In this document: positions 32,086-43,036 of the stretch, one piece after another
Numbering within the stretch: position 1 is the first letter of the stretch
Layout of the letters: each line of letters begins with the position of its first letter
NCBI RefSeq assembly: GCF_004404055.1
Contig: NZ_SOHK01000004.1
Coordinates: forward strand, 91,156-155,155
Length of the DNA: 64,000 bases
DNA from: Cryobacterium ruanii
GTDB taxonomy: Bacteria; Actinomycetota; Actinomycetes; Actinomycetales; Microbacteriaceae
Reading direction: 5' to 3'
Notes under the pieces: generated by a model
What the model saw: the letters and a program-made list of their open reading frames with translations, nothing else
Told to the model about the DNA's origin: nothing
Database searches by the model: none
Program-made: the position numbers and the translations under genes

Positions 32086-33036
32086 ATGCCCAGCCCACGC
32101 GAGCAGGAAATGTTTGTTCGCGCGGCGACTCTGTACTACATCGAGGGCAAGTCCCAAGCCGAAGTTGCCACCGAACTGGGCATTTCTCGTTCCAACGTGT
32201 CGAGGGTTCTCACGAGCGCCCGCGCCAATGGGATTGTCGATATCCGAATCAACGCTCCGTTTCGGCGAGATTCGAAGCTGGAACGCGACCTGATCGAAAA
32301 ATACGGACTCCAGGAAGCACGTGTCGCGCCAAGCGGAGCACCAGAAATGCAGCTAGCACGTGTGGGCGAATTGGGCGCTCAGTGGCTCATGGATCACCTC
32401 CCCCTCGAAGGATCGATCGCGGTGTCCTGGGGGTCGGCTGTTCAGGCAGTGGTGGAGGAAACCGCGCGCGATCCCACACACTCCACCCTCGAAATTCTTC
32501 CACTGGTTGGCGGACTGTCGATCGTGGATGCGGCCCGAGACGGGAATGTTCTCGTTCGAGCACTCGCGATCAAGTTGGGCGCCCGCCATCGGCGCTTGTA
32601 CGCGCCGGCCGTGGTTGAATCCACGACAGCCCGCACGGCGTTCCTCACCGAAACGTCGATTCGAACGGTGTTGGAAGCAGCCAGCGAAGCCCAGGTGGCC
32701 ATTGTCGGCATCGGCAGCGTTGGCGAGGGCGCATCCTCCGCAATCATCGATTCAATGTCGCTGTCAGCCACCGAACTTGCCCAGTTCCGTGATTCCGGTG
32801 CCGTGGGTGACTGCTGCACACGTTATTTCGACGGCAGCGGCCGGCCCGTTGATTCGTCCGTCAATGACCACGTTATTGCGATCGACCTCGCGAGTCTGCG
32901 CAAGATTCCCAAGGTGGTCGGCGTCGCTGCCGGCGTACAGAAAGCGGCGGGAACCCATGGAGCACTCAAGGGCAAGCTACTGCACTCGCTGGTGGTCGAT
33001 TCCGCTTTGGCCACAGCGCTTCTCGCTCTGGACTAA
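32086..33036 (+). CDS. SorC/DeoR-type sugar-binding transcriptional regulator
   Basis: A 316-residue regulator. AGGGAG precedes the ATG. The N-terminal helix-turn-helix (YYIEGKSQAEVATELGISRSNVSRVL, about 17-42) is followed by a SorC sugar-binding domain (SIAVSWGSAVQAV, VVGVAAGVQKA). SorC proteins bind phosphorylated sugars or polyols and control adjacent catabolic genes. It is the only regulator of this class in the cluster and the obvious candidate to control the PTS/oxidoreductase/dehydrogenase genes on the opposite strand. It is divergent from cysS. Confidence 0.88.
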   Translation: MPSPREQEMFVRAATLYYIEGKSQAEVATELGISRSNVSRVLTSARANGIVDIRINAPFRRDSKLERDLIEKYGLQEARVAPSGAPEMQLARVGELGAQWLMDHLPLEGSIAVSWGSAVQAVVEETARDPTHSTLEILPLVGGLSIVDAARDGNVLVRALAIKLGARHRRLYAPAVVESTTARTAFLTETSIRTVLEAASEAQVAIVGIGSVGEGASSAIIDSMSLSATELAQFRDSGAVGDCCTRYFDGSGRPVDSSVNDHVIAIDLASLRKIPKVVGVAAGVQKAAGTHGALKGKLLHSLVVDSALATALLALD

Positions 33037-33125
33037 GCACTCGCTTCCTGGGCGAGCAGGTCGCCGAAGACGGAAATCAGATTGTTCAGGCCGGCGGCGT
33101 GCTCGAGGCGGTCGGACTTGTCGGG
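33033..33125 (-). pseudogene. Possible gene remnant (C-terminal 30 codons)
   Basis: On the minus strand, a frame without an ATG reads PDKSDRLEHAAGLNNLISV and ends FGDLLAQEASA at a TAG that overlaps the SorC stop. It has coding-like character, but an in-frame TGA precedes it and no start or ribosome site is present. It looks like the end of a decayed gene left between the regulator and enzyme I. The family is not recognised. Confidence 0.4.
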
Positions 33126-33329
33126 TCACTGATCTAATGTGCCGGCTCAGCAGAGCAATCGGCTAGCCGGGATTCTTCACCAAAGCCATGGCAACGACCC
33201 GGGCACCGACCGGCTTAGCCGCGCCTCCCGGCGGCAGTAGCTGCCGGGAACGGCGTTTAGGCACGACTCGTTCACGGCACGAAGAGGCGGCTCTTTGAAC
33301 TCCCCCTTTCTCCGTGCCGCTATTGCGTG

Positions 33330-41038: not shown

Positions 41039-41039
41039 C

Positions 41040-42065
41040 TTACCACTCCCGAACAAGATCGGTGGCAGCGCGCACGATGTCTTCGACCTGTGGCACGGCA
41101 GCGCGTTCGAGCTTCGGTGCATAGGGGATGGGGATATCGAGGCCGGCTAGGCGCTTAATCGGGGCACGCAGGTGGGTGAAGGCATCGGACTCGGCGATGA
41201 TCGCCGAGATTTCCGACATGAACCCGAGGGTGCGCACGGCTTCCTGCACGAGCAGTACTCGACCGGTGGCCTTGACCGTGCGCAGAATGGTGTCGGTGTC
41301 CAGCGGCTTGAGCGTGCGCGGGTCGACGACCATGGCGCTGATGCCAATCTTGGCCAGCTCCTCGGCCGCCTCCATCGACCGGCTGACCTCGATGCCGGTG
41401 GCGATGATGGTGAGGTCGGTTCCTTGTCGGCGCACTGCGGCGACTCCGAGGGGAATTCGGGCGTTCCCGACGCTGACGTCGCCGGTGGTCTTGTAGAGGA
41501 GCTTGTGCTCTAGGAACATCACCGGATTCGGGTCGTCGATGGCAGCCAGCAACAGCCCCTTGGCATCATCCGCCGTAGCCGGCATGACCACCTTGAGTCC
41601 AGGAACGTGCACGAACCAGGCCTCCAGGCTCTGCGAGTGCTGGGCAGCCGCACCGGTACCGGATCCGCCGGGTGCGCGGATCACCATGGGAACGTTGACG
41701 GCACCGCCGAGCATGAAGTGGATTTTCGCGGCCTGATTGGCAATCTGATCCATCGCCTGTGCCGTGAAGTCGGAGAACTGAATCTCAACGATCGGACGCA
41801 TACCCGTCATGGCGGCACCGACACCGAGGCCGACGATGCCCAGCTCACTGATAGTCGTGTCACGGATTCGGTCAGCACCGACCGTATGCATCAGCTCGCC
41901 GGTCACGCCGAAGGCGCCACCATAGGTTCCGACATCCTCACCCATGAGGAAGACAGCCGGGTCGGCGGCCATGGCGAGAGCGAGAGCTTCACGAATTGCT
42001 TCGGCGTAGGTCATGACCGTAGTCTCGACGGCGGCAAGGGTTGATTGTGTGGGCGTCATGGCCAT
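41040..42065 (-). CDS. acoB: Acetoin-dehydrogenase-type E1 beta subunit
   Basis: A 341-residue transketolase-like subunit. Its ATG overlaps the E1alpha stop by one base (TAATG). FLMGEDVGTYGGAFGVTGEL with the thiamine-activating Glu, TTISELGIVGLGVGAAMTGMRPIVEIQF and the C-terminal VLLVQEAVRTLGFMSEI are the family motifs. Together with E1alpha it forms the heterotetramer that decarboxylates or cleaves the substrate using thiamine diphosphate. An ATG 17 codons further in (MTYAEAIREAL) is an alternative start. Confidence 0.92.
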   Translation of the reverse strand: MAMTPTQSTLAAVETTVMTYAEAIREALALAMAADPAVFLMGEDVGTYGGAFGVTGELMHTVGADRIRDTTISELGIVGLGVGAAMTGMRPIVEIQFSDFTAQAMDQIANQAAKIHFMLGGAVNVPMVIRAPGGSGTGAAAQHSQSLEAWFVHVPGLKVVMPATADDAKGLLLAAIDDPNPVMFLEHKLLYKTTGDVSVGNARIPLGVAAVRRQGTDLTIIATGIEVSRSMEAAEELAKIGISAMVVDPRTLKPLDTDTILRTVKATGRVLLVQEAVRTLGFMSEISAIIAESDAFTHLRAPIKRLAGLDIPIPYAPKLERAAVPQVEDIVRAATDLVREW

Positions 42066-43036
42066 TACCTCGCGTAAACGGCGGAGAGCAGGTCATCCGC
42101 GGTGGCATCGGGAGCAGCATTCGCGCGCTGTACAGCGGTGCGCAGCTCGGTTCGAACGTTGGTGCGGATTGCTTCGAGGTCGTCGTCGGTGAGCGTGCCG
42201 GCCGCACGGACGATGTCCTCGAACTTGGGGATCGGGTCCCGCAAGCGCCATTCTTCGATCTCTTCTCGCGTGCGGTAGAGATTCTTGTCGGACTTCGAGT
42301 GCCCCCTCCAGCGGTAGGTCTTGGCCTCGATGAAGGTTGGACCGCCCCCATCCCTGGCCCGGTCGACGGCCTCCTGGGTCGCTTCGTAGACTGCCTGGAT
42401 GTCGTTGCCATCGACGGTTACTCCGGGAATTCCGTAGCCCTTGGCGCGATCGGACAGCTTCTCAAGGTTGAAGGCCGCAGCGGCCGGCATCGACATACCG
42501 TACATGTTGTTCTCACACAGAAAGACCACGGGGAGTTGCCACATGGCCGCGAGGATGACGCCTTCGTGCCAGGCTCCCTCGCCCATGGCGCCGTCTCCAT
42601 GGAACGACACTGCAACCTGCTTGGTTCCGCGCATTTTGGCGGATAACGCTGCTCCCGCAGCGATCGGTATGCCTCCGGCGACGATGCCGTTGGCCCCCAG
42701 GTTTCCCGTAGCGGTATCCGCGATGTGCATCGAACCGCCACGACCACGGCAGTAACCTGTTTCCTTCGCGAGGAGCTCGGCCATCATGCGCTCCATGTCG
42801 GCGCCCTTGGCAATGCAGTGACCGTGTCCGCGGTGGGTCGAGGTGATGTAGTCGTCGATGTTCAAAGCCAGGCAGGCGGCCGTCGGCACTGCTTCCTGCC
42901 CGATGGAGAGGTGCATGGTTCCGTGCATGAGTCCACGACCATAGAGATCTTCTACTGCTTCTTCGAAACGACGGATCTTCCACATTGTGCGCAGTACGGA
43001 CACAGATAATTCAGGATCAACGGCGATCTGTTTCAT
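42065..43036 (-). CDS. acoA: Acetoin-dehydrogenase-type E1 alpha subunit
   Basis: A 323-residue thiamine-diphosphate-binding subunit. The TPP motif runs from GDGAMGEG (147) to NN (176-177). MHLSIGQEAVPTAACLALNIDDYITSTHRGHGH and GYCRGRGGSMHI are conserved in AcoA. The length and motifs are closer to acetoin dehydrogenase E1alpha than to pyruvate dehydrogenase. It is the first gene of the dehydrogenase part. Three phased palindromes upstream are candidate operators. The natural substrate should be an alpha-hydroxyketone with a methyl-ketone end, by analogy to acetoin; DXP has exactly this end. Confidence 0.9.
   Translation of the reverse strand: MKQIAVDPELSVSVLRTMWKIRRFEEAVEDLYGRGLMHGTMHLSIGQEAVPTAACLALNIDDYITSTHRGHGHCIAKGADMERMMAELLAKETGYCRGRGGSMHIADTATGNLGANGIVAGGIPIAAGAALSAKMRGTKQVAVSFHGDGAMGEGAWHEGVILAAMWQLPVVFLCENNMYGMSMPAAAAFNLEKLSDRAKGYGIPGVTVDGNDIQAVYEATQEAVDRARDGGGPTFIEAKTYRWRGHSKSDKNLYRTREEIEEWRLRDPIPKFEDIVRAAGTLTDDDLEAIRTNVRTELRTAVQRANAAPDATADDLLSAVYAR

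Follow-up and report, generated by a model that had tools for sequence, protein, structure and literature searches.

An eleven-gene cluster at positions 32086–43036 of the window, a 64,000-nucleotide stretch of Cryobacterium ruanii contig NZ_SOHK01000004.1, is predicted to encode the catabolism of 2-C-methyl-D-erythritol, or a close methyl-tetritol, by a reversal of the first steps of the methylerythritol phosphate pathway; we put the probability of this reading at about two in three. A phosphotransferase system (PTS) of the glucitol (gut) type, fed by its own enzyme I (EI) and HPr, would import 2-C-methylerythritol as 2-C-methylerythritol 4-phosphate (MEP). A DXR-II-type oxidoreductase (DRL) would then turn MEP into 1-deoxy-D-xylulose 5-phosphate (DXP), the reverse of the biosynthetic direction, and an E1/E2 complex, with an E3 from elsewhere in the genome, would cut DXP, a methyl-α-hydroxyketone, between C2 and C3, passing the acetyl unit to coenzyme A (CoA) and releasing glyceraldehyde 3-phosphate. 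A SorC-type regulator, acting at a tandem CACN4GTG site before the E1-alpha, gutC and DRL genes, would switch these units on together. The initial annotation had proposed such an MEP/DXP route from these eleven genes. All eleven (SorC, EI, DRL, GutM, gut IIA, IIB and IIC, HPr, E2, E1-beta and E1-alpha) score above a Pfam gathering threshold, and the predicted route and substrate gain support from the DXR-II clade, the recurrence of the set in four phyla, an E1 group with a basic residue, IspD nearby and a common operator.

The oxidoreductase is of the DXR-II type

Sequence similarity to its best Protein Data Bank match, Brucella DRL (3UPL, E 1.6e-98), settles the fold of the window DRL. Its domain layout is that of DXR-II, with an N-terminal NAD-binding domain, a PF21135 catalytic domain and a C-terminal SAF domain. 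In a 118-row tree (a quick method, drawn with a midpoint root, the outgroup being DLO-like by position only, with no named DLO1 or DLO2 row), the protein falls inside a 104-row clade with Brucella 3UPL, Listeria and Chloroflexales, and 14 DLO-like Microbacteriaceae rows are set apart on a branch of 1.42. The initial annotation had staked its proposal on membership of the DRL clade, and this tree, lacking named DLO1/DLO2 rows, places the protein there. It retains K191, K193 and T229 (fosmidomycin/substrate) and R320 and Y322 (dimer), residue roles that we take from the available text of Carretero-Paulet et al. 2013 (PMC3847144); in the ingroup, K191 and K193 are kept in 124/124 rows, T229 in 121/124 and R320 in 123/124. 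The same source, as far as available, verifies 11 DXR-II members as MEP makers, records four DLO1/DLO2 members that were tested and failed, and describes active DXR-II in Finegoldia and Chloroflexus, which are without the MEP pathway (PMC3847144). The window oxidoreductase thus groups with DXR-II rather than with the DLO-like proteins, and its activity on MEP and DXP is predicted. The DXR reaction is described as reversible (available text of PMC13001223).

Conservation of the gene set

We scanned genome contigs with ten DRL queries, headed by that of Priestia, retained the 80 best among 581 confirmed loci, and labelled neighbours by phmmer with the window proteins and a few others. Co-conservation counts are limited to loci flanked by 6 kb or more on each side, with the PTS counted within 8 kb; one locus (L183) was left out, its labels and scores being those of L080. 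Among the 39 qualifying loci in the best 80, a gut PTS accompanies DRL in 31 and E1 in 15, all 15 with the PTS; eight have neither. An Actinomycetota sample (of 48 places, 20 out of the top 22 once the window itself is set aside; one duplicate dropped, leaving 19 loci) gave 12 qualifying loci, with PTS in 10, E1 in 11 and neither in one. From the Microbacteriaceae we chose 20 regions among the family matches, ten of this clade and ten DLO-like controls: PTS is present in 9 and E1 in 7 of the 9/10 qualifying clade loci, and both are absent (0 and 0) from the 7/10 qualifying controls.

The initial annotation had suggested looking for the same gene set in other genomes, and DRL with a glucitol-type PTS and E1/E2 occurs in Actinomycetota, Bacillota, Chloroflexota and Alphaproteobacteria. 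Alphaproteobacterial plasmids of Pseudoroseomonas and Terrarubrum carry PTS, EI, DRL, E1 and E2 together; those of Rhizobium K1/93 and Nitratireductor carry most of the set in the stretch fetched, and Aminobacter and Hakubella have DRL-E1-E2, with no PTS in the stretch seen. Because the arrangement is conserved across phyla, it is not a product of chance, judging from these gene neighbourhoods.

A distinct E1/E2 complex travels with DRL

The window E1-alpha has 714 matches in 72,556 plasmid records. Of the best 34 (59% to 51% identity), 33 lie with a DRL match, 32 of them adjacent and that of Priestia 8.3 kb away; the exception, Rhizobium SSA_523 (L200), shares the lysine described below, and the 12.9 kb seen there contain no DRL. 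Among the 26 E1-alphas that follow in the list, none is close to a listed DRL, 51 of the 111 DRL records being outside that list. In the E1-alpha tree the 62 linked rows (49 distinct) form one group (support 70/81), with one change in 74% of 200 bootstrap trees. A 100/99 split divides rows resembling pyruvate dehydrogenase (PDH) or branched-chain ketoacid dehydrogenase from the acetoin side, where this group stands on its own beside the acetoin rows. The E1-beta tree is similar and weaker (69/71; 71%).

The alignment columns that are kept in linked E1-alphas and different elsewhere include a GHSKSD loop, whose basic residue (GHS[KR]SD; K248 in the window) is present in 49/49 distinct linked proteins, as Lys in 47 and Arg in 2. 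E1-alphas fetched later follow suit, with K/R in 5/5 linked and 0/4 unlinked. The ten unlinked tree rows have Glu (4), Thr (3), Val (1), Ser (1) or Asn (1) in this column and no K/R, which gives K/R in 0/14 unlinked bacterial and archaeal E1-alphas in all. Acetoin operons adjoining a 2,3-butanediol dehydrogenase gene (L167, L199) read GHFEGD; the glutamate is a feature that we noted in the fetched acetoin operons rather than a published criterion, and since the window loop lacks it we do not file this E1 as an acetoin dehydrogenase. In human PDH the motif is GHSMSD, its His and Ser being part of the active-site loop. The K/R at position 248 is a candidate phosphate ligand, as a phosphorylated substrate would favour the exchange of an acidic for a basic residue at the mouth of the active site. 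The available text of PMC3424233 reports 1-deoxyxylulose formation by PDH from pyruvate plus glyceraldehyde and DXP synthesis in vivo by E. coli aceE mutants, so E1-type enzymes can handle the DXP bond.

The E1 evidence also bears on a simpler account, in which the cluster serves ordinary sorbitol-type utilization and the dehydrogenase complex acts on pyruvate or acetoin. The PTS proteins do match glucitol/sorbitol models, but a sorbitol route needs neither DRL nor E1/E2, and the linked E1-alphas are distinct from PDH and acetoin-type E1 in both tree and signature. The initial annotation would also have given way to a PTS that carries only sorbitol or another common polyol, and none of the sequence evidence assigns this PTS exclusively to sorbitol. 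On the E1 signature and the conservation of the set we rejected a sorbitol operon with bystanders, which we regard as very improbable.

IspD neighbours and the need for isoprenoids

MEP is the substrate of IspD. IspD or IspF lies within 10 kb of DRL in 15/109 loci (genome-contig 4/80, Microbacteriaceae 4/10, Actinomycetota 7/19) and in 0/10 DLO-like controls; by chance one would expect roughly 1% for each locus (20 kb in ~3 Mb), loci of one family not being independent. Seven lineages contribute, namely Microbacteriaceae, the families f9, f16 and f31, Ktedonobacterales, Salinicoccus (about 7 kb off) and a Treponema, and loci of family f18 have no IspD or IspF within 10 kb. Against an NCBIfam IspD cut-off of 181.3, the cluster proteins score 187.9 in Ktedonobacterales and 219.3 in Salinicoccus; the Treponema IspD near DRL scores 148.6, with an IspF at 182.9. 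The cluster IspD proteins score far above the ribitol-phosphate model in all cases; an IspD-like match at L071 was left out of the counts as a ribitol-5-phosphate cytidylyltransferase. In two of the seven lineages the cluster copy is an extra one, as in genomes G265, G448 and G587 (Ktedonobacterales), whereas G356, G311 and G494 have no other full IspD. At one locus (L175, G463:C39:27131-29085) a DRL match lies beside CarD, ispF and cysS genes; here ispD is broken across two frames, and one TGA interrupts the DRL match, either through sequencing error or through decay.

Such neighbours might mean that DRL is a spare DXR-II for isoprenoid synthesis, with PTS and E1/E2 as unrelated neighbours. 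In 50 DRL genomes, several of them drafts or metagenome-assembled genomes (MAGs), we matched ordinary DXR (DXR-I) in 27 and IspG in 43: both in 26, IspG only in 17, neither in 6 and DXR-I only in 1. DXR-I was matched in 18/26 actinobacterial DRL genomes, three of them weakly (22–24 bits). The 17 genomes with IspG and no DXR-I favour the spare-enzyme account, as do the IspD/IspF neighbours; against it stand the DXR-I of the window genome, the 26 genomes with DXR-I and IspG, the six with neither (some of them MAGs), the accompaniment of DRL by PTS and E1/E2 across phyla, and the operator common to these genes in the window's family. In G190, a single-contig genome (94% complete), the whole gene set is present, DXR was not found and the only IspD match is one of 35 bits; isoprenoid synthesis is therefore not the general purpose of the cluster. 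On the strength of the DXR in the window genome and of G190 we rejected the spare-enzyme account, which we judge improbable. No DXR was matched in G311 or G272, which have IspD, or in Hakubella, which has IspG; each has just one DRL, set within an E1/E2 operon, and this DRL is therefore the only DXR candidate that we found for them. With two DRLs apiece, Thermovorax and Fervidicola are uninformative on a DXR role.

Imported methylerythritol might instead be salvaged through MEP to IspD and isoprenoids, with E1/E2 a minor branch. An ispDF gene directly upstream in the window and the additional cluster copies of IspD in G265, G448 and G587 speak for this, but salvage needs neither E1/E2 nor DRL, and some genomes with the cluster gave no IspD or no IspG match; salvage too seems improbable.

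A tandem operator-like site shared by the units

The site CACN4GTG-N11-CACN4GTG stands before E1-alpha (exact), gutC and DRL (one mismatch each). The window contains two exact matches and five at no more than one mismatch, with three of these five inside the cluster; 100 dinucleotide shuffles of the window gave means of 0.01 exact and 0.29 at no more than one mismatch (maximum 2). Related loci vary: in L127–L129 the match is exact before gutC and has one mismatch before DRL, in L131 it is exact before both, and L132 has an exact match at gutC's upstream edge (13567) and a two-mismatch match ahead of DRL.

Related loci with other endings or added genes

Other enzymes adjoin DRL in part of the clade. 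At a distance of up to 7 kb from DRL, triosephosphate isomerase was seen in 11 loci, all of them lacking E1/E2; UPF0047 in 11 loci, two of which are Microbacteriaceae with PTS only; and class II aldolase in 13, nine of this clade without E1/E2, one with (L066) and three DLO-like. All three occur together at L068, L071, L088, L102, L108, L109, L113 and L124, and the set is partial at L087, L091, L093 and L096. FSA or transketolase adjoin DRL in some further loci. In anaerobes the loci with aldolase, isomerase and UPF0047 may mark another, so far undescribed, way for a DRL pathway to end, and these genes, like FSA and transketolase, may represent other fates of DXP or other substrates.

Several loci carry additional transport or small genes. 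A second PTS (EIIC-GAT family, IIB and partly IIA) stands beside the DRL cluster at L127–L129, L059, L064, L046, L117 and Pseudoroseomonas L164:9400-11598, perhaps for a related substrate such as 1-deoxyxylulose. In Priestia and Ectobacillus (L010, L201, L045) an RbtT/DalT/CsbX-type polyol transporter and an FGGY kinase lie in the DRL cluster; the Priestia transporter, of the major facilitator superfamily, scores 533.9 bits against a cut-off of 375, and both genes are additions rather than replacements, as this cluster keeps its gut PTS and HPr. A small CxxC-pair protein family occurs near DRL in 18 loci (for example, L066:14601-14960 and L046:11384-11734), and a protein annotated as 'bh protein' in Priestia (L201:6-335) is perhaps of the same family. 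An Enterococcus raffinosus plasmid (L015) has a DRL-gut-PTS locus, whose neighbours we take by eye to be a phosphoketolase gene and a small AroD-like gene.

Organization of the window cluster and its genome

The ten genes from E1-alpha through EI lie on the minus strand, and SorC is convergent to them (Table 1). The minus-strand order is CarD, ispDF, E1-alpha, E1-beta, E2, HPr, gutC, gutB, gutA, GutM, DRL, EI; beyond SorC come cysS and then an rRNA methylase gene. NCBIfam cut-offs are passed by EI (TIGR01417), IIB (NF049924), IIC (NF049923), HPr (TIGR01003) and E1-beta (PRK09212), and failed for the older TIGR models of gut IIA, IIBC and IIC and for the PDH E1-alpha models; E1-alpha scores 357.8 bits against PDH model TIGR03182, below its cut-off of 393.85. 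Neither an E3 gene nor a sorbitol-6-phosphate dehydrogenase is among the eleven. DRL probably starts at ATG 36416, close to the start of its homologues in the alignment, and E2 at ATG 41038 from the open reading frame (ORF). Scans of the window gave no promoter-like sigma-70 site, and terminator-like sites not above shuffles.

Table 1. Coordinates of cluster genes and adjoining features in the window
Feature	Position	Strand	Evidence
SorC/DeoR-LsrR-type regulator	32086..33036	+	PF04198 218.5 bits; DeoR and LsrR the closest NCBIfam models, neither reaching its cut-off
PTS enzyme I, second copy in genome	33330..35012	-	TIGR01417 391.8 bits (cut-off 341.7); PF02896, PF00391, PF05524
DRL / DXR-II-type oxidoreductase, predicted MEP to DXP	35094..36470	-	PF21135 212 bits, NAD_binding_3, SAF; 3UPL E 1.6e-98
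Tandem CACN4GTG-N11-CACN4GTG operator-like site before DRL	36447..36477	.	one mismatch
GutM	36558..36992	-	PF06923 48.4 bits
Glucitol-family PTS IIA	36993..37379	-	PF03829 81 bits; below TIGR00849 cut-off
Glucitol-family PTS IIB, SrlE type	37433..38470	-	NF049924 409.3 bits (cut-off 400)
Glucitol-family PTS IIC, SrlA type	38473..39171	-	NF049923 186.4 bits (cut-off 150)
Tandem operator-like site before gutC	39277..39307	.	one mismatch
HPr, motif GLHARPAS; start probably ATG 39612	39355..39702	-	PF00381 86.2 bits; start from ORF reading
E2 acyltransferase, lipoyl, E3-binding and catalytic domains	39686..41122	-	PF00198, PF00364, PF02817; DHRVADG motif
E1-beta, DRL-linked group	41040..42065	-	PRK09212 367.9 bits (cut-off 321); tree
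E1-alpha, DRL-linked group, GHSKSD (K248), predicted acetyl-transferring DXP dehydrogenase	42065..43036	-	PF00676 299.2 bits; tree; signature
Tandem operator-like site before E1-alpha	43122..43152	.	exact
Fused ispDF, next gene upstream	43220..44422	-	TIGR00453 202.7 (cut-off 181.3); TIGR00151 151.7 (cut-off 116.45)

The genome (G000; 3.37 Mb, 24 contigs, completeness 99.98) has a single PF21135 protein and an ordinary DXR-I. Its other EI is at G000:C19, beside an HPr. PF21135 occurs in 53/249 genomes of the family and is absent from four sampled genomes of the same genus; close DRLs are found in the Microbacteriaceae Salinibacterium and Rhodoglobus. The genome holds four further E1-alpha paralogues (32–45% identity). 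A further acetoin-type E1/E2 set (G000:C9:17000-29000, L162) has two FGGY-kinase-like genes and sugar-ABC-like genes at its sides.

Comparison with known systems

The window DRL shares with Brucella DRL (3UPL/3UPY) its PF21135 and SAF domains, its clade and the five residues named above; the known DXR-II role is biosynthetic, from DXP to MEP, whereas the window protein stands with PTS and E1/E2 and is predicted to run in reverse. The acetoin dehydrogenase complex (AcoA/B/C) is on the nearest side of the E1 tree, and the window E1/E2 would likewise cleave a methyl-α-hydroxyketone and pass the acetyl unit to CoA, but its E1 belongs to the separate DRL-linked group, with K/R for the loop glutamate, and the butanediol dehydrogenase or NAD-kinase-like genes that adjoin the fetched acetoin operons are not beside it. 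With the glucitol/sorbitol (srl/gut) operon the cluster has in common the IIA, IIB, IIC and GutM families; unlike that operon it includes DRL and E1/E2, a SorC-type regulator and its own EI and HPr, and no sorbitol-6-phosphate dehydrogenase. MEP and DXP are the proposed intermediates, as in the MEP pathway (DXS, DXR, IspD), but the flow would be reversed, with DXP oxidized to acetyl-CoA rather than made from pyruvate. Autoinducer-2 (lsr) catabolism also takes a phosphorylated C5 methyl ketone to acetyl-CoA and a triose phosphate, as the proposed pathway would, and the window regulator is SorC/LsrR-type; no LsrF-like or ABC-transporter gene is among the eleven, and the predicted cleavage is thiamine-dependent.

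Weighing the methylerythritol reading

A number of observations weigh against catabolism of methylerythritol through MEP and DXP. The MEP/DXP equilibrium lies toward MEP. Wild-type E. coli PDH makes too little DXP to replace DXS (available text of PMC3424233), so E1 chemistry on DXP would need a specialized enzyme. Support for monophyly of the linked E1-alphas is moderate (70/81), and weaker for E1-beta (69/71). The cluster IspDs of families f9, f16 and f31 score 137–181 bits, under the cut-off of 181.3 (the 137-bit protein, of L178, is given without its N-terminus, and in L175 the protein scored is IspF), and at L177, which is cut by the contig end, IspD stands beside DRL with no PTS or E1 in the stretch seen. 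Two operator matches lie far from the cluster, at 13435-13465 (one mismatch) and 15273-15303 (exact), and are probably chance occurrences in GC-rich sequence. Exact operator pairs were found only in the window and L127–L129, L131 and L132 among 128 sequences scanned; as all of these are Microbacteriaceae, the site is specific to this family and not to other phyla. A gut PTS without E1/E2 occurs in 16 of the 39 qualifying genome-contig loci, besides the eight with neither. Where a DRL-PTS cluster lacks E1/E2, its downstream steps must be different ones and, as loci with aldolase, FSA or transketolase indicate, DRL-PTS operons differ in their ending.

The substrate may also have shifted, because six positions of the window DRL do not follow the DXR-II consensus (G121A, H250N, P330V and V351N, plus E174K and F178Y in the dimer cavity); for the same reason we call it DXR-II-type, a diverged relative rather than a verified DXR-II. 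Most of the six changes are common to its Microbacteriaceae kin (L127, L131, L132). Eighteen shown rows from other actinobacterial families all have G121 and H250, and vary at 178, 322 and 351. These departures lend weight to the strongest alternative, the same chemistry on another polyol, such as 2-C-methylthreitol, a 1-deoxy-pentitol or a 6-deoxy-hexitol, whose phosphate DRL would oxidize, with or without rearrangement, to a 1-deoxyketose phosphate for cleavage by E1/E2 to acetyl-CoA and a sugar phosphate. Gut-type PTS transport several polyols, and the polyol transporter and FGGY kinase added in Priestia fit this alternative as well. The DXR-II clade placement, however, together with IspD in or near the cluster in several lineages, indicates MEP itself, and we consider another polyol clearly less likely than methylerythritol.

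Implications

A source for the proposed substrate exists in the environment: 2-methyltetrols are isoprene photo-oxidation products studied in aerosols (for example, PMC12177631), and isoprene-derived markers are reported from ice cores (PMC11618991), according to the available text of both. In open-access full texts, with the subscription literature mostly outside the search, we found no described catabolic pathway for methylerythritol or DXP. With somewhat less assurance than the reading of the cluster itself, and at a little better than even, we propose an undescribed and widespread pathway in which a PTS makes MEP from environmental 2-C-methyltetrols, DXR-II converts it to DXP, and a new thiamine-dependent, acetyl-transferring DXP dehydrogenase, holding the phosphate by its Lys or Arg, yields acetyl-CoA and glyceraldehyde 3-phosphate. 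On this wider proposal, the DXR-II family would be to a considerable extent catabolic and recruited to isoprenoid synthesis where ordinary DXR was lost, which would explain both functional DXR-II in bacteria without the MEP pathway and the scattered distribution of the family. The pathway would also provide a biological sink for 2-methyltetrols and a new thiamine enzyme activity.

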